Origin: Candidatus Melainabacteria bacterium | GTDB lineage: Bacteria > Cyanobacteriota > Vampirovibrionia > 2-02-FULL-35-15 | Direction: 5' to 3' | Length of the DNA stretch: 58,522 bases | Assembly: GCA_016193285.1 (NCBI GenBank) | Contig: JACPSL010000025.1 | Coordinates: forward strand, 1 to 58,522 | Shown: positions 30,547 through 45,252 of the stretch, in pieces | Layout: every line of letters starts with the position of its first letter | How positions within the stretch are numbered: the first letter of the stretch is position 1 | Notes under the pieces: model-generated | What the model was told of the DNA's origin: nothing | Seen by the model: only the letters and a program-made list of their open reading frames with translations | The model's database searches: none | Program-made: the position numbers and the translations under genes

Positions 30547-33156
30547 ATGGCTATGAGATTTGCCACTAGTGAAAAAAGTGAAAAACAAGAAAATTTTATC
30601 CAGGAAGAATTTTTCCCAAATGTTGATGAGCTTCTCTTAAAAGCAAGACGTGCTTGTGCAGTTTTTACTCAATACACACAAGAACAAGTAGACAAAATAG
30701 TTCTTAATGTAACTAAAGCTGCAATTAATCATTCAAAAGATTTTGCAAAACTTGCTGCTTGTGAAACAAGAATGGGGTTATTTGAAGATAAAGTTTTAAA
30801 AAATATAGTTGCTAGTGAATTTTTATATCATCAGATTAAAGACAAAAAAACAGTAGGCGTAATTAAGGAAATTAAAGATGAAAAAATGGTTGAAGTTGCA
30901 GAACCAATTGGTGTTATTGGTGCTTTAACACCTGTTACAAATCCAACTAGTACAGTTATTTATAAATCTTTAATCTCATTAAAAACTAGAAATACAATTA
31001 TTTTTAGTCCGCACTTAATGTCTAGTAAATGTGTTGCATACACAGCTGAAATTTTATATAAAGCAGCTTTAGAAGCAGGTGCACCAGAAGGTTGTATAGG
31101 CTGGTTAAAAAGAAATTCAAAACTTAGAAAACAAACAAATTATTTAATGCAGCATAGGGAAGTAGATCTAATTTTTGCAACAGGCGGAACTACAATGGTT
31201 AAAGTTGCATACAGTAGTGGAAAACCAGCTATTGGAGTAGGTTCCGGGAATACACCTGTTTATGTTCACAAATCTTGTGATATTGCAAGTACAGCTATGG
31301 ATATTTGCATTTCAAAAACATTTGATAATGGTACTGAGTGTCCTTCTGAACAAACTCTAGTAGTTGATAAAGAGATCTATGATTTTTTACTAAATGAGTT
31401 TAAAAAATTAAATTGTTACATTTGTACAGAAGAAGAAATGAAAAAATTAACCCCTACTGTTATTGACATCGAAACTGAAAAAATGAATTATAAGTTTGTT
31501 GGAAAAGAAGCTCATAAAATTGCTTTAGCTAGTGGTTTTTCTGTACCTAAAGAAACAAAAATTTTACTTTGTGAGATAGATTCATTTCAAAAAAATCATC
31601 TTCTTTTACAAGAAAAATTAATGCCAGTCCTTGGAGTTTTAAAAGCCACTTCAGAAGAAGATGCATTAGATAAATGCTTGCTTGTAAACCATGCTGGAGG
31701 TACAGGTCATACAGCAGGTATTTTTGCAAAAGATGAAAAAGTAATTACAAAGTTTCAAGAACTAATTAATGCTGGAAGAATTATTGTTAACCAGCCAACT
31801 TCACTTGGAGGACTTGGGGGTTTTTATAATAATCTTTCTACTACTTTAAGTTTTGGTTGTGGAACAGGTGGTGGTAATAGTACTACCGACAATGTTAATA
31901 TCTATAACCTCTTAAATATAAAAAGAGTTCCTCAAAGACAAATCATGTCAATGTGGTTTAGAATCCCAAATCAAGTTCATTTTAACTCAGGAGCATTATC
32001 AGTACTAAAAACGTTAGATGCTAAAAATGCTTTTATTGTAACTGACAACACAATGGAAAAATTAGGCCTGTTAAAAAGAGTAATTGAAAGTTTACCACCT
32101 GCTTGTAATTTTAAAGTCTTTAGTGAGGTAGAACCAGAACCTAGTAAAGATATTATTGACAAAGGCTTAAAATATCTTACAAATTTTGCACCAGATTATT
32201 TTATTGCATTTGGTGGTGGTTCAGTAATTGATGCTTGTAAAGCAATTAGATTATTTTTTGAGTGCCCGGATATAAAATTTGAAGACCTGGCAGTTGATTT
32301 TGTTGATTTTAGAAAACGAGCAATTAATTTCCCCTTACTTGGAAAAACAAGGTTGGTTGCAATACCTACTACAAGTGGAACTGGCAGTGAAGTTAGTCCG
32401 GCATGTGTTATCACTGATAAAAAAAATAATTTAAAAGTATCTCTTTTTGATTACAATTTAACACCTGATATAGCAATTGTTGATTCCGAGTTAGTAAAAA
32501 ATTTACCAATAAAAGCCACAGCAGACACAGGAATTGATGCATTTACTCATGCATTAGAAGCTTTTGTTTCAATTTTTTCATCAGACTTTACTGATGCACT
32601 TTGCTTAAGAGCAATAAAAATAATAAACAAATGGTTGCCAATTGCTGTAGAAAATCCAAACAACTTAGAAGCAAGACAAAAAATGCATAATGCAGCAACT
32701 TTAGCAGGTATGGCATTTAGCAATGCTTCTGTTGGAATTAATCATGCACTTGCACATGCTTTAGGTGCACAATTTGGCATACCACATGGTAGAGCAAATG
32801 CAGTATTTCTTTTAAGTACAATTGACTACAATTCTGGAATGCCAAAAAAATTCATGCCTTTTTCTAATTACAGAAAATATATTGCACATGAAAAATATGC
32901 TGAGATAGCAAGATATCTTGATTGTACAGAAGACAATGTAAAACAACTAGTAAATTCATTAAAAGAAAAGGTAAAAGATCTTCTTACAAAATCACTTTTA
33001 CCAAGGTGTGTTTCAGAGTTAGGAATAAAATTAAATGAATACTTAGCAGCTATTCCAGACTTAGTAAATAAAACTATAAATGATCTAAGTTTAAGAACAA
33101 ATCCACGAATGCCACTTATAGAAGAATTAGAGGAAATTTTTAAAAATGCTTATTAG
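30547..33156 (+). CDS. adhE: Bifunctional acetaldehyde/alcohol dehydrogenase AdhE
   Basis: The 869-aa product joins an acetaldehyde dehydrogenase (residues 1-450; 'AEPIGVIGALTPVTNPTS', catalytic Cys in 'FDNGTECPSEQ') to an iron-dependent alcohol dehydrogenase (residues 455-869; 'AFGGGSVIDACKAI', 'IPTTSGTGSEVSP', metal-binding 'DAFTHALEAF' and 'NHALAHALGAQFGIPHGRAN'). It reduces acetyl-CoA to ethanol and re-oxidises two NADH, which points to fermentation. It overlaps the STAS gene by 11 bases. Confidence 0.95.
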   Translation: MAMRFATSEKSEKQENFIQEEFFPNVDELLLKARRACAVFTQYTQEQVDKIVLNVTKAAINHSKDFAKLAACETRMGLFEDKVLKNIVASEFLYHQIKDKKTVGVIKEIKDEKMVEVAEPIGVIGALTPVTNPTSTVIYKSLISLKTRNTIIFSPHLMSSKCVAYTAEILYKAALEAGAPEGCIGWLKRNSKLRKQTNYLMQHREVDLIFATGGTTMVKVAYSSGKPAIGVGSGNTPVYVHKSCDIASTAMDICISKTFDNGTECPSEQTLVVDKEIYDFLLNEFKKLNCYICTEEEMKKLTPTVIDIETEKMNYKFVGKEAHKIALASGFSVPKETKILLCEIDSFQKNHLLLQEKLMPVLGVLKATSEEDALDKCLLVNHAGGTGHTAGIFAKDEKVITKFQELINAGRIIVNQPTSLGGLGGFYNNLSTTLSFGCGTGGGNSTTDNVNIYNLLNIKRVPQRQIMSMWFRIPNQVHFNSGALSVLKTLDAKNAFIVTDNTMEKLGLLKRVIESLPPACNFKVFSEVEPEPSKDIIDKGLKYLTNFAPDYFIAFGGGSVIDACKAIRLFFECPDIKFEDLAVDFVDFRKRAINFPLLGKTRLVAIPTTSGTGSEVSPACVITDKKNNLKVSLFDYNLTPDIAIVDSELVKNLPIKATADTGIDAFTHALEAFVSIFSSDFTDALCLRAIKIINKWLPIAVENPNNLEARQKMHNAATLAGMAFSNASVGINHALAHALGAQFGIPHGRANAVFLLSTIDYNSGMPKKFMPFSNYRKYIAHEKYAEIARYLDCTEDNVKQLVNSLKEKVKDLLTKSLLPRCVSELGIKLNEYLAAIPDLVNKTINDLSLRTNPRMPLIEELEEIFKNAY

Positions 33157-33412
33157 TGATGAAACGACTTCAAGAGAGGTTATCTGTTCTACCTTTAACA
33201 GTTTAGAAAATCAATTACTTGATAAAAGAGAAATCTCATTAAACTTTGAAAAGATTAATTTCATTTCTGTTTATTTTTTAGAGAGATTAGAAAACTTTGT
33301 AAATAAAGCTAAAAGTTTAGATGTAAAAATTCAAATCATTAATGTACACCCTTCAGTTTATAAAGTGTTCCAGGTAAGTAGAATTAAAGATATTTTAAAT
33401 ACTTGTGTTTAA
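33146..33412 (+). CDS. STAS-domain protein
   Basis: The 88-aa product matches the STAS fold of anti-anti-sigma factors: 'LLDKREISLNFEKINFISVYFLERLENFVNKAKSLDVKIQIINVHPSVYKVFQV'. The usual phosphorylatable Ser/Thr position (D-S-S/T) is replaced by 'FISVYF', in which Ser is still present. It is translationally coupled to adhE. Its stop codon lies in the left copy of the 29-bp repeat that bounds accessory island A. No kinase or sigma factor is adjacent. Confidence 0.78.
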   Translation: MLISDETTSREVICSTFNSLENQLLDKREISLNFEKINFISVYFLERLENFVNKAKSLDVKIQIINVHPSVYKVFQVSRIKDILNTCV

Positions 33413-33432
33413 ACCATGCATGCAATTAGACC
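33404..33432. repeat. Left 29-bp direct repeat of island A
   Basis: It differs from the copy at 36780-36808 at one position. It contains the STAS stop codon and, on the minus strand, a remnant of the pgeF 3' end (GLIACMV then stop; the intact gene reads GLIACLV). The two copies bound about 3.3 kb. Confidence 0.88.
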
Positions 33433-34595
33433 GTCTCAAACATATCAAAGTTTCTTTCTATTGTTTTTTTAACTTCTCTCCATGAAAGTGCCTCAGGTAA
33501 TCCAAAACTTTTTTGTATTGGTCCCTTAACTGTGTAGCCAATAATTAACTTAGCTCTTAAATCATTTATCATCCTTGGGATATAAAAACCATGCTCTTTG
33601 AGACAACGCTCAAGGAGCCACAATATTACCTTTGAGCCCATTTTACTTGAAGTCTTATTAGAAGGGTTATAAATATTGTAAAGCTGATCGTATCTCATTG
33701 CCAATGAAGTTAATGTTTGTTCTAGTTTTTGTCTTATTTCTCTTTCTCTTTGTAACTTTAATTCTAAAGTAAGATTCATTGCCTGAAGAGATTTAATCGT
33801 TTCACCAGCTGTTAAAAGTTCTCGGTATAAATCATTTGCTCTTAAAGATATTTGCTTTATAGCACCCTTGTGTAATTCATCTCTAATCGCAAAGCGTTTT
33901 AAAGCTAGAGCAGAAGGTACACTTTCTTGCACCACAGACATTTTCCACAGTTCAAATCTTTGTTCTGAGATGCTTAAAGCCAGTTTAATACTTCTATCAT
34001 AATTATCATCTTCCTCAGGCAAGCAACCACCAAAAATTGTACACAGTATTTCAATTCTATCTTCGTACTCTACTCTTTCAGTTTTACTTATATCTTTATT
34101 TACTACTACTGACAAAGCATAAGTTGCTGCTCTTGCTGGTTCATAAGTATCTCTAGAAGCAATATGCAACAATAATTCCACATCGCCAGGTTGCAGATCA
34201 AAAACAGGCAACCTAATAAAGGCATTGCCATAAGCATAAAGAGCATTTGTTCGAACTGATTCATCTCTGTCATGTACGTTATTTCTAATCAGCTGTTCTA
34301 GATTTGGTTCAGACATACATACTTGCTCTAAATAATGTTTAACTCCTAGTAAGGCACTTGCTCTTACTGCAGCATGCTGATCCGAAATATTAGTAACTAA
34401 CAAGCCAGATAACTCTGGAACAATTCCCCACTTAATGTTGTTTGCAATTGCTAGAAGTGCATTTGCTTTTATACTTATGTCATTAGAGCTAGTGCATTTA
34501 ATTAGTGCTGGATTTAATTCGAAGTTCACTATACACCTAAGCATGGGAGTTGGCTGAACCAAGCAGAGATTGCTATTAACATGTATGCAAGACAA
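33426..34595 (-). CDS. HEAT-repeat / coiled-coil protein with chimeric N-terminus
   Basis: The 389-aa frame contains HEAT-like helical repeats at about residues 35-170 ('DISIKANALLAIANNIKWG', 'DQHAAVRASALLGVKHYLEQ', 'DRDESVRTNALYAYGN'). A linker follows, then a coiled coil at about 265-315 ('LELKLQREREIRQKLEQTL') and a conserved-looking C-terminal helical domain. The first 26 codons are antisense to an IS630 transposase remnant at 34518-34769, so the original 5' end was probably lost and the present ATG is fortuitous. Function unknown; the layout suggests a scaffold. It ends inside the 29-bp repeat. Confidence 0.65.
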   Translation of the reverse strand: MSCIHVNSNLCLVQPTPMLRCIVNFELNPALIKCTSSNDISIKANALLAIANNIKWGIVPELSGLLVTNISDQHAAVRASALLGVKHYLEQVCMSEPNLEQLIRNNVHDRDESVRTNALYAYGNAFIRLPVFDLQPGDVELLLHIASRDTYEPARAATYALSVVVNKDISKTERVEYEDRIEILCTIFGGCLPEEDDNYDRSIKLALSISEQRFELWKMSVVQESVPSALALKRFAIRDELHKGAIKQISLRANDLYRELLTAGETIKSLQAMNLTLELKLQREREIRQKLEQTLTSLAMRYDQLYNIYNPSNKTSSKMGSKVILWLLERCLKEHGFYIPRMINDLRAKLIIGYTVKGPIQKSFGLPEALSWREVKKTIERNFDMFETV

Positions 34596-34769
34596 TGCTT
34601 AGGTAAATCACGAATTCCAGATATTGAATCTTTGAAAAAGAAAACAAAAGCTTGGAATACTTATGTTAATGAAAAGAAGGTCACTATTAATTGGAGATTT
34701 TCAACTAAAGATGCCAGAACTAAATTTAAATATGAGCGGGTAAAAAATATGGAAGAAATTAAATTGTAG
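34518..34769 (+). mobile_element. IS630-family transposase C-terminal remnant
   Basis: An 84-codon frame encodes 'FEVHYTPKHGSWLNQAEI' (the third acidic residue of the DDE triad with its HYTPKHGSWLN context) and 'RQCLGKSRIPDIESLKKKTKAW', 'TINWRFSTKDARTKFKY' and a stop. This is the standard end of IS630-type transposases. It is preceded in frame by a stop, and the first three quarters of the gene and both inverted ends are missing. It therefore marks an old insertion followed by deletion. It separates two truncated genes. Confidence 0.85.
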
Positions 34770-34770
34770 T

Positions 34771-35502
34771 TATACTAGGGAATGTGATCGTGGCTTTAGC
34801 GTTACTCCAGAAGGTGCTCAGAAAAATCTTACAGGATATTTTCTAAGCACTCTTTCAGATAGAGATAAGAAGTTTATACCTGTAATTATCACATCCGAGC
34901 CATCTTTGAGTGAAGAAGAAATTAATTCAATTGATGAGGGGGGGCACAGCTTAAAAGCAGAGCTAAAATTATATACAAAAATTAGCGAGGCTATGCTAGG
35001 ACCACATAGATTTAGTCATCATTTTTATTCTTTTCATAAACCACTTGATGCACAACAAGGAGAAGCTTTAGCAAGGCACTTTTTAGAGCCCTATGTGATT
35101 TCCGGGAAAGTAGATAGGCCTGAGAATTATGCTGCAGTAGGACAAGTTGTTAAAGATTATACTCCTGCGGTTATTACAAGTACATTTAATCAAGTTGCAA
35201 ACAGCACTCAAGATAAAGTAAGCATTGAAGATATGCTTAATCCATTAAAAATGGAAATGAGCAGAAGTAAATTGCGTGAAAATACTGAGCTGATTGAATC
35301 ACTACGAGGTAGGATTACATATTTGGTTGATCTAGATCAAGTGAAAAAAATAAACGGTGAACTTAATTATTCATCTCTTGCCTTAGCTGCAAAAGATTTA
35401 AGTCCACGACAAATAAAAGATGCTATTGAAAAACATGCACCAGAAGTTTTAACCCAAGAAAACATAATTGCTGCATTTGAAAAAGTTAAGGGAGAAGGTT
35501 AA
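34771..35502 (+). pseudogene. 5'-truncated AAA-like ATPase fragment
   Basis: The frame is open from just after the IS630 remnant. It reads 'RECDRGFSVTPEGAQKNL', 'KKFIPVIITSE' (sensor-1-like strand), 'RFSHHFYSFHKPLDAQQGEALARHFL' and 'YAAVGQVVKDYTPAVITSTFNQVAN', an order like the lid domain of AAA+ ATPases. No ATG lies near the start; the first usable start is TTG at 34906. Walker A and B are absent. I read it as the C-terminal remainder of an AAA+ gene interrupted by the IS630 element. The AAA assignment is moderate; the truncation is clear. Confidence 0.5.
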
Positions 35503-35524
35503 ACATTTCAAACGAAATGTTTTC
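35502..35524 (+). terminator. Hairpin after the AAA-like fragment
   Basis: AACATTTC and GAAATGTT pair around AAAC, followed by TTTC. It overlaps the end of the fragment's stop codon. A short U tract makes it a modest terminator. Confidence 0.55.
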
Positions 35525-35626
35525 AGGATATTAATAAATCACTTTGTTCTAGAGATTGGGCTACTGTGATGTCTGCTTAATTTATTGGATTGAAATTAAT
35601 CAACCGAAAAATTGAGAAATACAACA

Positions 35627-35646
35627 AGTATGTGTTTAAACTAAGC
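35627..35646 (+). repeat. 20-bp direct repeat upstream of fic
   Basis: It matches 36776-36795, directly after the fic stop codon, at 19 of 20 positions (AGTATGTGTTTAAAC then C or T then AAGC). The pair brackets fic and its promoter. Confidence 0.78.
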
Positions 35647-35664
35647 GGAAGTAGCTTAAACCAC

Positions 35665-35708
35665 AATCTTATATAATCCTATATAATCTTATATAGTCAG
35701 GGTATAAT
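35665..35708 (+). promoter_or_regulatory. fic promoter with three 10-bp tandem sites
   Basis: AATCTTATAT, AATCCTATAT and AATCTTATAT (35665-35694) repeat with a 10-bp, one-helical-turn period across the -35 region. TATAAT is at 35703-35708. The ATG follows 11 bases later, so the transcript would be nearly leaderless. The Fic protein ends in a winged helix that could bind these sites; that is inference. Confidence 0.5.
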
Positions 35709-35719
35709 TACATTAGATT

Positions 35720-36775
35720 ATGCTAAAACAAAGGTTTGACAATAGAATAAGTAATTTACCATCTTCAATATGGTCAAAAATAGCTAAGATTGATGAACTA
35801 AAAGGTAGATGGTTAGGTGGGGTCAATTTAAATCCTCAAATACTTGGAAGACTAAAAAAGTCAGTCCTAGTTACATCAACTGGTGCATCTACAAGGATTG
35901 AAGGAGCAAAATTAACAGACAAAGACATAGAAAAACTTCTTAGGGGTCTTTCAATGCAAAAATTCTCTGACAGAGATAAGCAAGAAGTAAAAAGCTATTA
36001 TGAACTTTTAGAAAATATATTTAATTCTTGGGAAACCATCGGGTTTAGTGAAAGTGCAATTAAGCATTTTCATAAAGAACTTCTAAAATATGTTGAAAAA
36101 GATAAATTACACAGAGGTGAATATAAGAAAACTGAAAATAAAGTTCTAATGATAAATGAAGCTGGAGAATCAGTAGGAATATTATTTAATACTACATCAG
36201 CTTATTTAACCCCAAAAGAAATGCTTGAGTTAGTTGAATGGACAAAAGAAAGTTTAAAAAGTGAGTCTTTTCATCCGCTTTTAGTAACAGGAAATTTCAT
36301 AGTAGAGTTTCTTCAAATACACCCATTCCAAGATGGTAATGGAAGGATTTCTAGAATATTAACTAATTTACTTCTTTTAAGAGCAGGATATTTATACATG
36401 CCTTATGTTTCACATGAAAAGATAATTGAAGACAACAAACCTGATTATTATTTGGCTTTAAGAAAAACTCAAAAGACTTTTAAAACTAAGAGGGAAAATA
36501 TATTGCCTTGGTTAGATTTCTTTTTTGACGTTTTGCTTGAACAGTCTAATCAAGCAATTAGTTTACTTTCAGAAGATAATATAGAAGTTATTCTTTCAGA
36601 GAAACAAATGAAAGTTTGGCAGTTTATTCAAAAACAAGGGGAAGTTACACCACTTATGATAGAAAGTAAACTTAAGATTCCTAGACCTACAGTAAATCAA
36701 ATACTCACCAAGTTGCTAGATTTAAAAAGAGTTAACAGAATTGGTATGGGAAGAGCAACAAGATATCAAATATGA
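35720..36775 (+). CDS. Fic-domain AMP transferase with C-terminal winged helix
   Basis: The 351-aa product has an N-terminal inhibitory motif (STRIEG, residues 57-62, fitting [S/T]xxxE[G/N] of class II Fic proteins) and the active-site loop HPFQDGNGR at 201-209. It ends in a winged-helix DNA-binding domain ('KQMKVWQFIQKQGEVTPLMIESKLKIPRPTVNQILTKL'). All active-site residues (His, Asp, Asn, Arg) are present, so it should transfer AMP to a target protein Thr, Ser or Tyr. The family is widespread as a self-regulated post-translational modifier. It is flanked by 20-bp direct repeats inside island A. Confidence 0.92.
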   Translation: MLKQRFDNRISNLPSSIWSKIAKIDELKGRWLGGVNLNPQILGRLKKSVLVTSTGASTRIEGAKLTDKDIEKLLRGLSMQKFSDRDKQEVKSYYELLENIFNSWETIGFSESAIKHFHKELLKYVEKDKLHRGEYKKTENKVLMINEAGESVGILFNTTSAYLTPKEMLELVEWTKESLKSESFHPLLVTGNFIVEFLQIHPFQDGNGRISRILTNLLLLRAGYLYMPYVSHEKIIEDNKPDYYLALRKTQKTFKTKRENILPWLDFFFDVLLEQSNQAISLLSEDNIEVILSEKQMKVWQFIQKQGEVTPLMIESKLKIPRPTVNQILTKLLDLKRVNRIGMGRATRYQI

Positions 36776-36808
36776 AGTATGTGTTTAAACCAAGCATGCA
36801 ATTAGACC
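36776..36808. repeat. Right direct repeat of island A and of the fic cassette
   Basis: Positions 36776-36795 match the repeat upstream of fic. Positions 36780-36808 match the left island repeat at 33404-33432. It contains the last codons and stop of pgeF on the minus strand. Confidence 0.88.
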
Positions 36809-37570
36809 TTGCCTGCCAGCTCTTTTGCCTTGAATCCTTTGAGAGTAAAATAAACTATGATGAAGAGCTGTGTCTAATTCAGAAGTAAAGATTTTCATAA
36901 CTCCTGCTTGTTCTAGTTGAATGTAGTTTGCTAGTTTTAAATCTACTTTAGGTTTAAGTCCTTCTGTGTTAACTATTTCATCTGCTTCACATGCTTCTAT
37001 TAAAAGATTTGCAACATCTTCACCTACTTCATAATTTTTTTGACCTATTGCAGGTCCTATTGCTGCAATAATTTGTGATGGTCTAGCTAGGTAATTTTCT
37101 TGCATAGCAATAACAGCTTTTTCAACAATTCTTTTACTGGTTCCTTTCCATCCTGCATGCACTAAACCAACTAATCTTTTTTCATGACAATAAAGAAGTA
37201 CTGGTACACAATCTGCAGCTGTTATTAAAATTGGAATGTTAATAAGATTAGTGACTACAGCATCTGATTCAGTAACTTCTTTAGTATTTTTTTCTAAAAC
37301 TAAGACATTATCTGAATGAACAATTGGAAGTACTACTAAAGATTCAAAACTTAAGTCCAGGCTTTTACACAATACTTCCCTGTTTTTGTCAACACTTTTT
37401 TCAGGAAATACAGTTGGTTGATGTTTACCTAAATTTAAGTCATTTGATTTACCGGTAAATAAGTGTTTTAAGTTATTAAATTCTAATAGATCATTACATT
37501 GCCATCCTTTTACTTGTCCAAAATTTACTTCTTCCCAGTCTTTCTTTTGTAATTTTTTTAAAAACATCAT
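36785..37570 (-). CDS. pgeF: YfiH/PgeF-type laccase-domain protein
   Basis: This 261-aa member of the Cu-oxidase_4 family has 'VHSDNVLVL', 'TAADCVPVLLY', 'LVGLVHAGWKGT' (metal-binding His and Cys set), 'IGPAIGQKNYEVG' and 'FYSQR' near the end. Members act on purine nucleosides or on misincorporated peptidoglycan (PgeF, polyphenol-oxidase-like). The frame is open from 37615, but the upstream codons overlap a tandem repeat and do not fit the family. The ATG at 37570 or 37567 is preferred. The final seven codons are duplicated at the far end of island A. Confidence 0.85.
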   Translation of the reverse strand: MMFLKKLQKKDWEEVNFGQVKGWQCNDLLEFNNLKHLFTGKSNDLNLGKHQPTVFPEKSVDKNREVLCKSLDLSFESLVVLPIVHSDNVLVLEKNTKEVTESDAVVTNLINIPILITAADCVPVLLYCHEKRLVGLVHAGWKGTSKRIVEKAVIAMQENYLARPSQIIAAIGPAIGQKNYEVGEDVANLLIEACEADEIVNTEGLKPKVDLKLANYIQLEQAGVMKIFTSELDTALHHSLFYSQRIQGKRAGRQGLIACLV

Positions 37571-37595
37571 AAGGTAAAATATAGCATATGAGAAA

Positions 37596-37634
37596 GACCA
37601 TAGACCATAGACCATAGACTATAGACTATAGACC
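37596..37634 (+). repeat. 7-bp tandem repeat (GACCATA/GACTATA)
   Basis: Three GACCATA units and two GACTATA units, followed by GACC, lie between the divergent pgeF and sbcD starts. They are too regular for chance and are non-coding for either gene as annotated. Confidence 0.9.
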
Positions 37635-37642
37635 AGCAACTA

Positions 37643-38887
37643 ATGATAAAAATTGTTCATTTTAGTGATCTTCATTTTGGCTCTGGAGAAAGATATGGCT
37701 CTTTAAATCCAGAGACTGGACTACATAGAAGGTTTGAAGATTTTATTTCTGCTTTAGATAAACCTGTAAACTTTGCAATTGATAAAAAAGTAGATATGGT
37801 TATTTTTACAGGAGATACATATAAACATGCTACTCCTGAACCTGTGTATCAACGAGAGTTTGCAAAAAGGATTAAAAAACTTTCCAAAAATAAAATATTA
37901 ACAATTTTGCTTGTAGGTAATCATGACATTTTATACAGGATTGATGGATCGGATACCCTTGATATTTACAGTACATTATCAATTGAGCATGTAACAGTAT
38001 TTAATAAAATTGAATTAAAAAATATTGAAACAAGAAATGGAATTGTTCAAGTAATTACTCTACCTCACATTACAAAGAGCAGATTATTAATAAAGGATGA
38101 ATATAGAAACTTAAATTTAAAAGAGCAAGATAAATTAATGATTCAAAAAGTAAAAGAAGCAATTAGCGCAATGATTGAAAAATTAGATCCTAAATCTCCT
38201 TCTATTTTAATTGGACACGGGACTATAGAAACTGCACAATTTGGTTCAGAGCAGGATTTATCCATTGGTAAAGTTCTAAGTTACCCATTAAGTATTTTTC
38301 AAAATACACAAGTTGACTATGTAGGCTTTGGGCATATTCACCGTCATCAGGTTTTACAAAAAGAAAATCCACTAATTTTATATGCAGGCTCCTTGGAAAG
38401 GGTAGATTTTAGCGAAGAAAACGAGGATAAAGGTTTTATATATTTAGAACTAGAAAAAGGTAAAGTAAACCACAAGTTTATTTCTACAAATCCAAGGAAA
38501 TTTATAACTATAAATTGTGATTTAACAAATAGCAAAAATCCACAATTAGATTTTGAAAATAAAGTTAACGAAGTCAACGAAGTTAAAAGCAAAAAAGAAG
38601 CAGGAGCTATTGTTAGGGTTAAATATAAAATAAATGAAGAAAATGCTGGTTTAATTAATCAAACACAAATAAAAAAATTACTAAGTGACAGTTTTGCATT
38701 TTTAATTCAGAGTGAAATTGTTAATAAGGAAAGGACTTATAGAATTTCAGAACTTGATTCTAATTTAATTACAAACCCGCTTTCTACTCTAGAAAAGTAT
38801 TTGTTTGAGTATAAGGATGAAGAAAAAAATATTTTGCTTGAGAAAGCTAAAGAGATTGTGAAATCCCTGCCCCACTTAACTCACTAG
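37643..38887 (+). CDS. sbcD: SbcD/Mre11-like DNA repair nuclease
   Basis: The 414-aa product is a calcineurin-like phosphoesterase with the full metal set: 'IVHFSDLHFG', 'MVIFTGDTY', 'LVGNHD', 'ILIGHG' and 'YVGFGHIHRHQ'. These are Mre11/SbcD features for double-strand-break end processing with SbcC. No sbcC lies in the window. A 9-bp tandem repeat (38564-38586) encodes 'NEVNEV'. The last 14 codons form the left 57-bp repeat that is shared with the 3' end of pilT. Confidence 0.86.
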   Translation: MIKIVHFSDLHFGSGERYGSLNPETGLHRRFEDFISALDKPVNFAIDKKVDMVIFTGDTYKHATPEPVYQREFAKRIKKLSKNKILTILLVGNHDILYRIDGSDTLDIYSTLSIEHVTVFNKIELKNIETRNGIVQVITLPHITKSRLLIKDEYRNLNLKEQDKLMIQKVKEAISAMIEKLDPKSPSILIGHGTIETAQFGSEQDLSIGKVLSYPLSIFQNTQVDYVGFGHIHRHQVLQKENPLILYAGSLERVDFSEENEDKGFIYLELEKGKVNHKFISTNPRKFITINCDLTNSKNPQLDFENKVNEVNEVKSKKEAGAIVRVKYKINEENAGLINQTQIKKLLSDSFAFLIQSEIVNKERTYRISELDSNLITNPLSTLEKYLFEYKDEEKNILLEKAKEIVKSLPHLTH

Positions 38888-38899
38888 CTATCAATTTTT
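38843..38899. repeat. Left 57-bp direct repeat of island B
   Basis: It differs from 45196-45252 at one position. It encodes the sbcD C-terminus (AKEIVKSLPHLTH) on the plus strand and, on the minus strand, a copy of the last 17 codons of PilT (KLIASELSGAGISQSL). The single difference is synonymous in the PilT frame. The two copies bound about 6.3 kb. Confidence 0.93.
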
Positions 38900-39010
38900 A
38901 AAAAGGAATTTCTTCAGCAGTAGTAATTACTTCATCAAGATTTTTGCTTGATTTTTTTCATTAATAATCTCTGCACCAAGGGGTAAGGTTTTTACTGTAT
39001 TGCAATTAAG
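38898..39010 (-). pseudogene. Possible ssb 3'-end remnant
   Basis: On the minus strand 'SSKNLDEVITTAEEIPF' and a stop have the acidic tail ending IPF that is diagnostic of single-stranded DNA-binding protein. The upstream part is in another frame across an A-rich run (TLPLGAEIINEK). No OB domain remains next to it. The tail's stop codon sits exactly at the island boundary. Short, so moderate confidence. Confidence 0.4.
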
Positions 39011-39156
39011 ACGCGTTAATCAAGTTTCACAGTTTTTATTCATTAATTAATTCCACAAATATTAAATTTTCAATTCCCATACCTTGCCTGATTAAAAAAC
39101 AAAATTCTTTGTGGTATTGTAGTTGCAATTATTTAATACTGCCTGAAGTTACAACT

Positions 39157-40707
39157 ATGATTACAGCAATTAGTAAAACTTCTGAATTACAACCGACTAG
39201 AGGTAAAACTCATGTTCATATCCCAAGAAGATATTTAGTAAATGAAGAAACCTTTGAAAGATTTAAACAAAGACAATTTACAAGATTTAAACCAGAACAA
39301 ATAATAAACGAAGATAATTTAATTCTTCCGCAAACTATTCTTCCTCAAAAACCAAATGCACTTCCAATAGATTTTGCTCAAAGAATAGTTTTAGATCCTT
39401 CACTTAAATCTAAGGCTATAAGGATATTAATCAAAAATGGCATTCCTAAAGATGAAGCTAAATGGGAAATTGCTGGAGCCCAGGATCGCTTTCAAGAAGC
39501 ATGTGATTGGGCAGAGAGAAATAAAACTTATGGTGAAAGCGGAGCTAATGCTGCTCTTATTGCTACTATAACTGGAATATTTCTCTCAGTTTTAAATAAT
39601 CTTGATTCCGTTCCATCTTTTGTAAAAACAGGAATAAATATTCTTCATAATTTTGCATTAGGAAAACGTGGTCATGACCTCTATACCATCTATAAACAAC
39701 CTGATGATGATTTAGGAGTAAAGCTTTACCAGAAAGAACATTATGGTAATCATGTCACTGGTGATCTTGCAGATCTTTCTTGTAAGATTGAAACTAAAGT
39801 TAAACCTTTTGTTTTACCTTTCCTTTCTTTCCTTGACTCTGATAAACAAGAATCTTTAATTCAATTACTTACACTTCCAACAACTCTTTTTTGGAGAGGG
39901 CAATACGTTGGTTACCTTGACCAAAGATTTTTAACACATCTGATGAAGTATGTAGCAAATTGTCCCTTTGCACTATTTGGTAATGAAGCAAGTAAGAAAG
40001 TATTGGAAGAAATAAATAAAGATGATTTATTGACAGTTAATTTTATGAAAGAAAGATTAAAATCCTTGCTTGAACTTAAAAGAGGTGAAACAGTATCAAA
40101 AAAATTAACTTATTTAGTTAAAGGATTATTTTCAAAAGACATAACGAGAGTAGAAGAATCAGCAGGGATACTTAATGAAGCATTAGCACCACTTTTAGGA
40201 TTACCTGGATTTGCAGTATCACTTATAGGAGTACCACTGAAAGCAATAAGTACATTTTTATTTTCTGAAGATACTATAAGTGATTCAGTAAGAAGAAAAA
40301 TAGATTCACTTGCCAGTATAGGAGTAGCAACGCAACAGCTTCTTTATAGTCTTAGGTTTAGTATTAAGGAGCATATTGAGGGTGAAAGAATTCTTGAAAA
40401 ATTAAAACTTCCAAACAATTATACAGAAGAACAAAAACAAGAGCTTCTAAGAATAGCAAATGAGAGATGCAAGCTCTCAATGATAGGTTTATTTGTAAAT
40501 AACTTAAATATAATTATGCCATTTGTAAGACTATTTGATGATAGCAATCCATTTATGAAAACAACAAAATCAATTTTATATGAAATATCAAATGGATTAA
40601 GTTTATATTTTTTCCCAAAAAGAAGACAACTTAGAGGAGAACGCTTCCTCATTGAAGAAAAAGGGGCATCTGAAAAAGTTAAAAGTGAAAAAGCAATGAA
40701 AGATTAA
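39157..40707 (+). CDS. Large protein of unknown function (516 aa)
   Basis: Unrecognised. There is no signal peptide. The polar N-terminal 100 residues are followed by a mostly helical body with several hydrophobic stretches ('NAALIATITGIFLSVLNNL', 'ALAPLLGLPGFAVSLIGVPLKAI', 'LSMIGLFVNNLNIIMPF') that could associate with a membrane, and a basic C-terminal tail. I start it at the ATG at 39157; the frame extends to 39109 through codons that do not look translated. It occupies much of island B and has no neighbour on its strand. A host-interaction or effector-like role is possible but unsupported by any motif. Confidence 0.62.
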   Translation: MITAISKTSELQPTRGKTHVHIPRRYLVNEETFERFKQRQFTRFKPEQIINEDNLILPQTILPQKPNALPIDFAQRIVLDPSLKSKAIRILIKNGIPKDEAKWEIAGAQDRFQEACDWAERNKTYGESGANAALIATITGIFLSVLNNLDSVPSFVKTGINILHNFALGKRGHDLYTIYKQPDDDLGVKLYQKEHYGNHVTGDLADLSCKIETKVKPFVLPFLSFLDSDKQESLIQLLTLPTTLFWRGQYVGYLDQRFLTHLMKYVANCPFALFGNEASKKVLEEINKDDLLTVNFMKERLKSLLELKRGETVSKKLTYLVKGLFSKDITRVEESAGILNEALAPLLGLPGFAVSLIGVPLKAISTFLFSEDTISDSVRRKIDSLASIGVATQQLLYSLRFSIKEHIEGERILEKLKLPNNYTEEQKQELLRIANERCKLSMIGLFVNNLNIIMPFVRLFDDSNPFMKTTKSILYEISNGLSLYFFPKRRQLRGERFLIEEKGASEKVKSEKAMKD

Positions 40708-40964
40708 TAATCAGTAGTTCGTGGTTCCACTTGCCTGAGCTCAATTAGGCTGCAAGTTGCTGCACTCATAGCTTCCACTTCTCGATCATAAGCAGCAAGT
40801 TCTTCTGGAGATAGCGAGTCTCTAAATGCTTGTTGCCGGGCTAACATCTCTTCTACTTTTTTACGAGTGTCTGGAAAAAAAGATGTCCTAACATCAATAC
40901 CTAGTGCCCTCATTTCTGGAAGTGAAAGTCCTGAATTATTTACTGGCTCAACCATGCCAAGCAT
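40704..40964 (-). CDS. Small hypothetical protein (86 aa)
   Basis: The family is unrecognised. 'EMRALGIDVRTSFFPDTRKKVEEMLARQQAFRDSLSPEELAAYDREVEAM' is a charged helical pair. It overlaps the end of the unknown 516-aa gene by 4 bases (tail to tail). It has a weak ribosome site (GTGAG) and, 23 bases upstream, one of two copies of an 18-bp palindrome-containing site. Its composition is GC-richer and more Ala/Arg-rich than its neighbours, so it may be a late arrival. Confidence 0.55.
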   Translation of the reverse strand: MLGMVEPVNNSGLSLPEMRALGIDVRTSFFPDTRKKVEEMLARQQAFRDSLSPEELAAYDREVEAMSAATCSLIELRQVEPRTTDY

Positions 40965-40986
40965 TTAATCTCACTTCTTAACTGAT

Positions 40987-41004
40987 ATACAGTAAATGTA
41001 TTAG
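40987..41004. promoter_or_regulatory. 18-bp inverted operator-like site, copy 1
   Basis: ATACAGTAAATGTATTAG occurs here and as a perfect reverse complement at 45064-45081. The core ATACA-n5-TGTAT is palindromic. One copy lies upstream of the 86-aa gene and the other upstream of the large surface protein. No regulator is identified. Confidence 0.5.
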
Positions 41005-41165
41005 TTTCTTAACCAAAATTTATGTAAAAATTAGTTAAGTTGAAGTTTTTGAGGTTTTTTTAATCAAAAGAGATACTAAAAATAATTGTAGTCGGGTTTT
41101 GGTAAAAAAGAAAAGTTAGTCAGGAATTTCTAAAATGGTTTTTAGTTCTGTAAGTAAGGTTTAAC

Positions 41166-41456
41166 TTATTCAATAATCTCTTCAATCGCAAAAGCTATAT
41201 TTCCAAAACCAGTTTTATCTAAACGACCTTTAAGTGTTAGCAGTTCACTCTTTCCTATGTGTGGCTTTAAAGATTCAAATATTTTTTTTGTTGCAGGAAC
41301 TGCTTCAAGTATCCCCGTTTCATCTTCTAGTATGGTGTATTTGACTAATGGGTCTTCAGGGATGAAAGTTGCTCTTACATTAAGCTGTATGTCCCTTGCT
41401 AAAATTGTGTCATTTTTTGCATTTTTGAATTTGTCTAATATTTCTTTAATAGTCAT
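41166..41456 (-). CDS. OB-fold protein (96 aa)
   Basis: The 96-aa product fits a single OB fold of the RPA/anticodon-binding type: 'ARDIQLNVRATFIPEDPLVKYTILEDETGILEAVPATKKIFESLKPHIGKSELLTLKGRLDKTGFGNIAFAIEEI'. It has no signal peptide and starts inside the stop of the large surface protein gene (4-base overlap), so it is co-translated with it. Such pairing of an OB protein with a surface protein is odd; nucleic-acid binding is inferred from the fold only. Confidence 0.6.
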   Translation of the reverse strand: MTIKEILDKFKNAKNDTILARDIQLNVRATFIPEDPLVKYTILEDETGILEAVPATKKIFESLKPHIGKSELLTLKGRLDKTGFGNIAFAIEEIIE

Positions 41457-44400
41457 GGGATGCCTAACTTGTCAATTAAGATGAAAGGTGATAACTCACC
41501 GGGATTGCCAAATGATATTGGGGAAGATGGTACAACAAATTGTAATGGGAAGTAATTATTATGGTCTAAGTAAATCTCTTTTGTATTAACTGCTAAGTCA
41601 ATAAAAGCTTTAGCTCTTTCAGGTTCTAATTCACCTTTGCTGTTTGGATCGCCAAGTTCAAAAGTGCCTGACTTGTATAATCTTAGTGCTTCTGCAATTT
41701 CTGAAGTTGAAGCTTCTAAATCTGGCTTAAGAGATAAGTTAGTTAAGTATGCACCAGAGCCAGTAGGGTTGAGAACTGATCTTACATCACCTTCTGAACT
41801 GCTGAAGATTGATTTTGAATCTATAATTTTAGGAATTGCTGTTAATGTCCCATACTTCCTAAACACTCCACCAACAAATGGCTCAACAAATATTGGCAGA
41901 GAAGTTCTAGGCACAGTAACACTCATACTAAAAGTATTTTGTCCGTTAAATTGCAGAGTGATTGTATGAGATCCTTCAGGTAAACATGTAGAATAAAATC
42001 CAGGATATTGAGGAATATGTGGAAATGGTTCTGTCACATTTACTTTAAAGGTTGATGAATTGTCTATTGATATTCCTGCCATTGTATTTGTTCTCATTCT
42101 GTCTAAGTTATTTAGATCTTTCCCGATTATAAATCTTCTGTCAATTGTTCCGCTAACTCTTGTACATGTTGAATCTTTTACTTGCTCAAAGTAATCTAAT
42201 TTTGTTTTTTGGTTATTTAACGTGGCAGCTACAATGTAAGCTCCAAGACCTAAAGCTACTTTAACCCATGGTGGTAGAGGTAAAAGTGCTTCTTCGTTTG
42301 CAAACGCTTTAAATAAAATACTATCTGGTAAATTAGAATCTACTAGAGGACTTTGTAATCCTATTGGCTTTAAAACATTTGTAAGTCCTTTTATTAAAAT
42401 TACATAAGGAAGATTTTGTTTAATTGAACTTAAAATATATTCCTGATAATTTGATGTGGATATTCCACATTGAAATGTAGTGGTTGTAACTTGTGATTTA
42501 AGATTTTGATCTAAGATTTGATTTTGATTACATCTTAAATCATCAATAATTTTTAGAAGTTCATACGTCGCCTCCTGTGTCTCAAGATCATATCCATTAT
42601 TATTGTCTTCACTTAAAAGTTTTAGGTCTTTCAGTAATTGTTTGAAATCTTTTAAGGTAAGCTCTTCACTAAATGGAAAGCTTACTGATTTTATGTTTAG
42701 TGCTAGATCATCTAGAATCGTTGCTGTTCCATTTGTTACAAATGGAAGTTTAATTTTGTCTTCTTCTTTACTTGATTCAGTAAAGAAAGTTTTGTCTCCA
42801 ATTTTTAATTCACAACTGTCACTTTCATCTCCTGATGTTATTGTGAAGGAGACCTTGTCAAAATTATTCCATTCATCTGGAATTAGAAATGAAATCGTTC
42901 CACTCATTGCACCGGTAAGTCTATTTGTTGGATCTATTATTTCGTTTAGGTTTAGTATTGGAACTACTTCTATTGGTTCACTTGTTAAATAACCTTCTGC
43001 ACTTATTCCTGGTGTCTTCCCGGATTTTTGTGAGTAACTAAATATTACGTTTTTATTTCCCTCATTTTCTCTTTCTACATCACAAAACGTTACTACTTCA
43101 CCATCTACTTTGTATTCTGCCTTGTCTGCTATTTTGTATCTTGGATCATTTAATTTACTTGCTGCTAAATCTCCAAACTCTTCTTTTACTCTTTGTTTTA
43201 GGTCAGTAAGAAAATTGTTACTTCTTTCTAGAGTTACTTTTACAAGCTCTGTTTCTTTTGGTAATCCTGTTATGGTTACTTGCTTACTTAGTTCTTCATT
43301 AGTTAATTTCACTTTTTTAGTTTGCGTGGTTAGTAAATTATTCAAAGCATCATACATCTCTAATTTTAATTCAAGTGTATATTTCTCAGGTGTTTTTGTA
43401 TTGTTTGAAATACTAAGTGTTAATTCCTTTGTCTCCGTTGTTTCTTCTTGTGTTTTCTTGTCTATTTTTCTTTTTAGTTTTCCACTCCCACTATTTATCC
43501 TTGGTTTATCTAAAAGAATTAATTTTTGTGGAGTACTATACGAAAATCTTGTTTCATCTTCAGAGGCACTTGAGAAAGCTGTATAAAAATATATTGGTCC
43601 AAATACATTCCCACTTTCAAAATCTTTATTAAAGCTTTCGTTAGTTAATAAATTAAAGTTTAATTTAGTAGTTGCTACAATTTGTGGTTTACCTCCATTG
43701 TCTTCGTTATCTTTGTTATCTCCATTTTCTTCTGGAAACTCTACAGGAATATTTAATATGTAAGGTTTTTCTTCTTTTGTATATTCTTTTGGCGTGTATT
43801 TGAATGTACAATCATAAGTTAATTTTCTATTTGGCAAAGTCTGATTTGGTGTCAGATTACAGTTTAGGTTTAAATTATTTTCTTTTTCACCACTTGGAGT
43901 TTCAATATTTGCAGCAGCATTTTTAATTTGTGGTTTTTTATCTTCTGTAAAGGGAGCACTGTCTTCTGTTTGTAGTTTGAATGTTATTGTATTTTCTTTG
44001 TCGTAAATTAGATTTTTTGGTTCTACTTTCTGTATGGATGCTTCTACATCGCGGATTACTTGAATACTGTAAGTAAGTGTTGTACTAAGTGAGTTGTTTT
44101 CGAAAGTTGTACCATAGAGGTTTGAATACCCTGGATTAGCTGTTAGTGTTTGAGTTATTGTATAAGTTCTAAGTGGCCAGTAAAGAGTTGGGTTATTCCC
44201 AATTAAATTAGGATTAAAAAGATCAGTTACTGTATTATTACTATTTAAAATAATGCTCTCAAAGACACTTGGATACAGTCTACAACCGTCTAATTTTCCA
44301 ATTGTAGATGTTGTAATTAATCCACTCCCAAGTAAACTTCCTCCTATGTTTATATTACTAGAGCTATTATTTATCATAAAAACATTGGAGTTTATTACTA

Positions 44401-44941
44401 GTTTTGCCTGACCATCATTTTGAGATTTTTGTATATCATCACAAATTACCAAATCTCCAATAAGTTCAAATGGTTCTCCTTGTCTTACTTGATATGTCAT
44501 TCCATCATTTTTTATTATTCTTACTCCGTTTATTTCACTCACTTTGTTTATTCCATTTATTTCATTATTTTGGCTCTGTTTTTTTAATGTTACTACTTTA
44601 TTTCCTACAACTTCAAATATTTTACTTGTTTTATTTCCTGCTTTATCTTTTGCAATTATTTCTACTTTTGTTATTGGGGTTATTTGTGTATCTAATATTA
44701 TTTCAAATGCTTTTTTATTATCGCCAAGATCTTCCAATTCTGTTTCATTTATTGTTTTAATTTCAGTTTCATTATTTATCCTGTATGAAATTGAATCAAA
44801 ATGTTCATCTTCAACAACACCAGAGATTACAAGTTTATCTTGTACAATTTCTTGAGCATTTACTGGAAGAGCAAAAACACAAATGTTGTTTAATAAACAA
44901 ATGATACAGAGAAAAGAAATTGTTTTTCTTTTAGTTATCAT
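41453..44941 (-). CDS. Very large exported surface protein (1162 aa)
   Basis: A signal peptide (MITKRKTISFLCIICLLNNICVFALPVNA) is followed by Ig-like beta domains ('VISGVVEDEHFDSISYRINNETEIKTINETELEDLGDNKKAFEIIL', 'ITKVEIIAKDKAGNKTSKIFEV'). A long middle of beta-rich segments comes next ('KNLIYDKENTITFKLQTED'). A Thr/Lys/Glu-rich stretch includes 'GDNKDNEDNGG' from the 9-bp repeat. The C-terminal half has a hydrophobic segment ('WVKVALGLGAYIVAATL'). It ends without a sorting motif. I chose the ATG at 44941 for the signal peptide. An adhesin or envelope structure role is inferred. Confidence 0.72.
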   Translation of the reverse strand: MITKRKTISFLCIICLLNNICVFALPVNAQEIVQDKLVISGVVEDEHFDSISYRINNETEIKTINETELEDLGDNKKAFEIILDTQITPITKVEIIAKDKAGNKTSKIFEVVGNKVVTLKKQSQNNEINGINKVSEINGVRIIKNDGMTYQVRQGEPFELIGDLVICDDIQKSQNDGQAKLVINSNVFMINNSSSNINIGGSLLGSGLITTSTIGKLDGCRLYPSVFESIILNSNNTVTDLFNPNLIGNNPTLYWPLRTYTITQTLTANPGYSNLYGTTFENNSLSTTLTYSIQVIRDVEASIQKVEPKNLIYDKENTITFKLQTEDSAPFTEDKKPQIKNAAANIETPSGEKENNLNLNCNLTPNQTLPNRKLTYDCTFKYTPKEYTKEEKPYILNIPVEFPEENGDNKDNEDNGGKPQIVATTKLNFNLLTNESFNKDFESGNVFGPIYFYTAFSSASEDETRFSYSTPQKLILLDKPRINSGSGKLKRKIDKKTQEETTETKELTLSISNNTKTPEKYTLELKLEMYDALNNLLTTQTKKVKLTNEELSKQVTITGLPKETELVKVTLERSNNFLTDLKQRVKEEFGDLAASKLNDPRYKIADKAEYKVDGEVVTFCDVERENEGNKNVIFSYSQKSGKTPGISAEGYLTSEPIEVVPILNLNEIIDPTNRLTGAMSGTISFLIPDEWNNFDKVSFTITSGDESDSCELKIGDKTFFTESSKEEDKIKLPFVTNGTATILDDLALNIKSVSFPFSEELTLKDFKQLLKDLKLLSEDNNNGYDLETQEATYELLKIIDDLRCNQNQILDQNLKSQVTTTTFQCGISTSNYQEYILSSIKQNLPYVILIKGLTNVLKPIGLQSPLVDSNLPDSILFKAFANEEALLPLPPWVKVALGLGAYIVAATLNNQKTKLDYFEQVKDSTCTRVSGTIDRRFIIGKDLNNLDRMRTNTMAGISIDNSSTFKVNVTEPFPHIPQYPGFYSTCLPEGSHTITLQFNGQNTFSMSVTVPRTSLPIFVEPFVGGVFRKYGTLTAIPKIIDSKSIFSSSEGDVRSVLNPTGSGAYLTNLSLKPDLEASTSEIAEALRLYKSGTFELGDPNSKGELEPERAKAFIDLAVNTKEIYLDHNNYFPLQFVVPSSPISFGNPGELSPFILIDKLGIP
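43696..43724 (-). repeat. 9-bp repeat (GATAACAAA/GATAACGAA) in the surface protein gene
   Basis: On the minus strand GATAACAAA, GATAACGAA and GACAATGG follow one another. The unit matches the AACGAAGAC repeat in the exported NTF2-like gene and the GTTAACGAA repeat in sbcD. Confidence 0.65.
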
Positions 44942-45063
44942 GAGAGATACATTCAACCAAAAGATTTAAATTTCTTGTATCGGGAAAAACCTTAGATTCA
45001 AATGCAACTTATGGTTATATTTACTGCAAAAACAAAATATTTTTTTAATTGTAGAGTTTTTGT

Positions 45064-45081
45064 CTAATACATTTACTGTAT
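45064..45081. promoter_or_regulatory. 18-bp inverted operator-like site, copy 2
   Basis: CTAATACATTTACTGTAT is the exact reverse complement of the site at 40987-41004 and lies 123 bases upstream of the surface protein start. The region 44942-45195 otherwise holds only a hairpin (AAGGTTA at 45155-45161 with TAACCTT at 45173-45179) and no gene. Confidence 0.5.
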
Positions 45082-45195
45082 TGATGATATTTTTGGTATC
45101 AAAACTTTTTATTTTTTTAATATTTCAAGACACCTTTTATGAAGAGATATTGAGAAGGTTAAATATTTCATGTAACCTTTGGTTGCATTGAAGGC

Positions 45196-45252
45196 AAAGC
45201 TAAAGAGATTGTGAAATCCCTGCCCCACTTAACTCACTAGCTATTAATTTTT
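45196..45252. repeat. Right 57-bp direct repeat of island B
   Basis: Partner of 38843-38899, one mismatch. It contains the PilT C-terminus and stop on the minus strand and a complete copy of the last sbcD codons on the plus strand, so both convergent genes are intact at their own end of the island. Confidence 0.93.

Follow-up and report, generated by a model that had tools for sequence, protein, structure and literature searches.

The window analysed here, a 58,522-nucleotide stretch from a draft genome of Candidatus Melainabacteria (G000; 39 contigs) that was compared with the family relatives G001–G010, contains an island between two convergent host genes. To the left lies a STAS-domain gene (33146–33412, forward strand; Pfam STAS), a neighbour of pgeF that is kept across the family, and to the right lies pgeF itself (36785–37615, reverse strand; Cu-oxidase_4, Pfam 1.5e-56). 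The island is bounded by direct repeats of 29 bp, of which the left copy, TGTGTTTAAACCATGCATGCAATTAGACC (33404–33432), and the right copy, TGTGTTTAAACCAAGCATGCAATTAGACC (36780–36808), are identical at 28 of 29 positions, exactly where the initial annotation had placed them. A 29-bp pair of this kind has a chance expectation of about 8e-7 in a 12.5-kb region at the base composition of the window, and a Markov null (5 x 118 kb) produced no repeat pairs of 20 bp or more; the repeat is real and far beyond chance. The only match to the 29 bp in its own genome is the partner copy, and the pair is therefore not a dispersed repeat, which had been raised from the outset as the observation that would count against an insertion.

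The STAS gene ends in TGT GTT TAA, with its stop codon at 33410–33412 in the left copy, and pgeF ends on the opposite strand in GTT TAA, with its stop codon at 36785–36787 in the right copy, the two stops overlapping within TTTAAA. The functional STAS end and a relict of the pgeF end thus lie in the left copy, and the functional pgeF end lies in the right copy, as was first described for this locus. Both gene ends are contained in the 29 bp, so that both copies derive from the ancestral STAS/pgeF junction. Their sole mismatch falls in the unconstrained left copy, and the right copy retains the CCAAGC that is found in relative G007.

The first inserted segment (33433–35625; 2193 bp) comprises a HEAT fragment, an IS630 remnant and an AAA fragment. 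Its start as given by the repeat, 33433, lies within 4 bp of the point at which DNA homology to a HEAT paralogue on another contig of the same genome begins (33436). The gene previously described as a HEAT/coiled-coil gene (33426–34595, reverse strand; 87% DNA identity to G000:C10:4083-4901) proves to be the remainder of a longer gene, namely its C-terminal half, and ends at a stop codon that the left repeat provides: the intact paralogue on C10 encodes 796 aa and lies downstream of a gene for a 781-aa AAA protein (Pfam). The remaining gene content of the original description is supported, with a C-terminal remnant of an IS630-type transposase (34545–34769, forward strand) that gives a distant DNA match to an annotated IS630 transposase on a plasmid, a C-terminal remnant of an AAA protein (34906–35502, forward strand) that has no Pfam match of its own and is 37% identical over 202 aa to a 919-aa Walker-A protein (C8:92467-95226), and fic, which is identified by Pfam.

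A third copy of the repeat, which had been missed earlier, is found just outside fic: AAGTATGTGTTTAAACTAAGC (35626–35646) matches 36775–36795 at 20 of 21 positions, beginning 5 bp further left than the 29-bp core and ending 13 bp before the right end of that core. It forms the left copy of a 21-bp duplication around fic, the right copy of which is 36775–36795. Between them lies a second inserted segment of 1128 bp (1.13 kb; 35647–36774), consisting of fic and its promoter region and showing 88% DNA homology to an unlinked fic locus in G008, a member of another genus. The gene itself is SoFic-like and encodes 351 aa (35720–36775, forward strand; Pfam Fic 3.5e-14, PADLOC SoFic 1e-42). The limits of the segment predicted from the repeats (35647/36774) compare with 35653/36769 from the homology to G008, and over both segments two separate sources of data give the same limits within 4–6 bp. 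The fic segment occupies the right margin of the first insert and is bounded by its own duplication, and from the middle copy it follows that two insertions, one nested in the edge of the other, make up the STAS/pgeF island: a decayed HEAT/IS630/AAA segment followed by a fic segment. The earlier reading as one island thus holds as regards insertion with target duplication, and the single event is replaced by two. In G008 the 88% fic homologue adjoins a likely tRNA gene (contig C92), and GGGAGTTTTTATTTTT seems, by eye, to be present on both sides of fic. As sources of the inserted DNA, a plasmid gave only weak matches, to fic and IS630, and a virus gave one distant match to fic in IMG/VR; both were set aside.

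Across the family the gene order is fliI-adhE-STAS-pgeF-sbcD-pilT. STAS and pgeF follow each other without a large insert in seven of the ten relatives (G001, G002, G003, G007, G008, G009 and G010), with a gap of 6 to ~124 bp, which is the empty junction that the initial annotation had proposed to look for and which makes the island a gain. In G005, pgeF adjoins fliI and neither STAS nor adhE is matched. The relatives belong to other genera, with pgeF identities of 66–73%, so that the intact ancestral junction is seen across genera and the empty site is not that of a sister strain. Two relatives have inserts of their own at the STAS/pgeF junction, of 1.35 kb in G006 and 0.4 kb in G004, which contain a putative DUF4143-type ATPase and an acetyltransferase-like protein (assigned by eye), and the junction is therefore one that has been repeatedly occupied. 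No repeats above those of shuffled sequences flank the G006 and G004 inserts, and of the inserts that occupy these junctions in G006, G004, G001 and G008 none has repeats above chance; these inserts may be old, and the scars of earlier events may have disappeared.

A sister island with the same layout lies nearby in the window, between sbcD and pilT, which are adjacent in most relatives. Its 57-bp duplication (56 of 57 positions identical) has a left copy at the sbcD end (38843–38899) and a right copy at the pilT end (45196–45252), enclosing an insert (38900–45195) with a multi-copy 532-aa gene unit at a site that is empty in most relatives. Both islands are thus insertions into an ancestral junction with duplication of the target, as had been claimed for them. 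The multi-copy unit consists of the 532-aa gene and a convergent 86-aa gene (38979–41234 and 45081–45193 in the window) and has matches at ~81–96% identity on contigs C32, C22, C21, C26 and C27, several of them at contig ends; the copy on C32 lacks a 3.8-kb part bearing a 1167-aa gene. The 532-aa protein has no Pfam or NCBIfam match.

The genome-wide search for comparable repeats that had been suggested was carried out on ~0.88 Mb of the 1.81 Mb of this genome and on 800 kb from three relatives; many of the pairs obtained were paralogous genes or palindromic (REP-like) dispersed repeats and were set aside, the latter occurring in G000:C19, G000:C8 and G009:C2 (e.g. TGTAGAGACGCATGGCCATGCGTCTCTAC). 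Two further cases were found in the own genome. In one, a 3.2-kb segment that holds a single 1001-aa gene lies between 33-bp copies (32 of 33 identical), close to the 3' end of the heptosyltransferase gene that adjoins rseP. At this locus (G000:C32:5532-6575) the heptosyltransferase frame runs into the insert, which provides a new C-terminus, and the native 3' end is left as a relict beside rseP. In the other, which separates truA from a ThiD2/TMP-TENI gene, 23-bp copies (23 of 23, and longer imperfectly by eye) enclose a gene for a DUF4143 ATPase. Relatives have the two genes of each pair side by side without these inserts, and truA in G001 has a different 0.6-kb insert. Candidates in the relatives are a 343-aa gene in G009 between identical 122-bp copies, both of which encode the same C-terminus and stop, and a 294-aa gene in G004 between 93-bp copies. 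The duplications therefore vary in length (21, 29, 33, 57 and 23 bp in the own genome, 93 and 122 bp in the candidates from relatives) and have no common target sequence, no shared 6-mer being above shuffled sequences; at the STAS/pgeF island itself both duplications, of 29 and 21 bp, consist of copies derived from the target. The additional cases of the same layout in the genome and in the family support a mechanism common to the insertions, as had been proposed. An error of assembly or gene prediction, or a similarity that arose by chance, would be very hard to reconcile with these data: this is a draft genome in 39 contigs, and contig ends hold some of the related units, but the borders of the inserts coincide with those of homology to independent sequence, the chance expectation is about 1e-6 and the same layout recurs in relatives that were assembled separately.

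Gene 3' ends are classic att sites, and integrase-driven islands occupy them, as e14 does at icd, rebuilding the gene 3' end on both sides of the island in the manner seen here. In an alternative account, a tyrosine recombinase acting in trans would have put small cassettes at a core in the pgeF 3' end, in the way that islands enter tRNA genes or gene 3' ends, with the repeats as attL and attR and the middle copy as the att site of the second cassette; such a recombinase would leave a similar scar, and tyrosine recombinase-like genes are present at other places in the genome (C10, C2 and C19). The two insertions at STAS/pgeF also used the same 16-bp core, a hint of site preference, and a fic homologue in G007 (75%) lies between perfect repeats of 61 and 49 bp in an array. 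However, neither the island nor its immediate surroundings encode a recombinase, the duplications in the own genome vary from 21 to 57 bp without a common motif or a constant core across insertions (the 16 bp shared by fic and the first insert notwithstanding), and one of the target sites is a gene start. Nor does any integron integrase score above the cut-off, and the type of repeat found in G004 and G007 is not found in ~0.88 Mb of the own genome. Site-specific integration is accordingly regarded as unlikely.

The arrays in question (G004:C18, ~338.9–358.6 kb, and G007:C14) consist of repeats of ~100–140 bp spaced by single accessory genes, among them Fic, ATPase, DAM-like and restriction-like genes and a likely toxin-antitoxin pair. 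All repeats of the G004 array have one orientation, and several of those in G004 and G007 have a variable central palindrome. The arrays are integron-like, but their boxes are non-canonical. An integron as the source of the island was rejected, as these boxes deviate (by eye) from GTTRRRY/RYYYAAC, TIGR02249 has no match above cut-off in any of 31 genomes, and the attC-like repeat of the arrays was not found in ~0.88 Mb of the own genome.

Movement of the segments by a transposase of the IS1634/IS1549 type is a further explanation, since elements of this family generate long and variable direct repeats upon insertion, with target duplications of 8–514 bp (PMC2266710), and a broken IS1634-family transposase is present at G000:C38:95011-95529 (132 bits, cut-off 100). 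That relict, however, is a fragment without a long flanking repeat, the island has IS debris of the IS630 type, and the inserts carry no such transposase; terminal inverted repeats above those of shuffled sequences were found at none of five inserts. This explanation is therefore considered improbable, more so than site-specific integration. Apart from the IS630 debris, no recombinase or transposase is encoded by the inserts, all island ORFs of at least 60 aa having been read.

The initial annotation had also proposed that the mechanism prefers overlapping gene ends. Convergent junctions account for 4 of 6 targets, against ~9 of 45 (about 20%) in the window (binomial p 0.017, from a small count and post hoc). 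Two sites are co-directional, namely the truA/thiamine gene junction, where a gene start was duplicated, and heptosyltransferase/rseP, and selection would yield the same bias. Given the small post hoc count, the co-directional sites and the alternative of selection, the preference is not established. That the inserts sit at gene ends probably reflects survivorship, since neither gene escapes damage from an insertion there unless the duplication covers both ends.

Taken together, the locus is best explained by two successive insertions of DNA that is not self-mobile into the STAS/pgeF convergent junction, each of which duplicated its target, and this account is considered likely. The HEAT/AAA-type segment would have entered first, producing the 29-bp duplication, and would then have decayed to IS630 debris and truncated genes; fic would have entered later, duplicating AAGTA from the end of the first insert together with 16 bp of the right repeat. 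The incoming DNA may have been acquired by transformation, and ComEC is present in the genome. The most likely route would be its capture at a break whose ends were staggered over a long distance, or through template switching, and fill-in of the stagger would give rise to the duplications. A search of the own genome and of seven family relatives found no Ku, which makes classical end joining unlikely, and Ku-dependent end joining was rejected on this ground. A more far-reaching proposal, that an unnamed mobility route operates throughout the family, placing single accessory genes (Fic, DUF4143 ATPases, HEAT/AAA proteins and large unknown proteins) at gene ends with duplications of 20–120 bp by means of a dedicated enzyme encoded elsewhere in the genome, is unlikely.

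Insertions of this kind are known from restriction-modification genes of Helicobacter. Two papers that refer to Nobusato et al. 2000 and Furuta et al. 2010 describe restriction-modification units that insert with 'long and variable target duplications' (PMC3031569), the duplications being 'in the order of 100 bp' (PMC3874152). The scars at STAS/pgeF fit the class of insertion with long and variable target duplication. Set beside the insertions described there, the present ones are alike in having no transposase of their own, duplications that vary in length from tens to hundreds of bp and an empty site in relatives. They differ in host, a member of the Melainabacteria, in the length of the duplications (21–57 bp in this genome versus about 100 bp there) and in the relatives compared, which are genera and not strains. 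The cargo also differs, with fic, HEAT/AAA fragments, a DUF4143 ATPase and large unknown genes in place of the restriction-modification genes that are usual in the first reports, although such cargo does not define the scar.

Reports of insertions with long target duplication go back to 2000 and chiefly concern restriction-modification genes. A genome that has at least five scars of this type, including a nested pair, that carries other accessory genes in them and that apparently lacks Ku would extend the phenomenon beyond restriction-modification systems and would offer material for resolving the mechanism by which these long target duplications arise.
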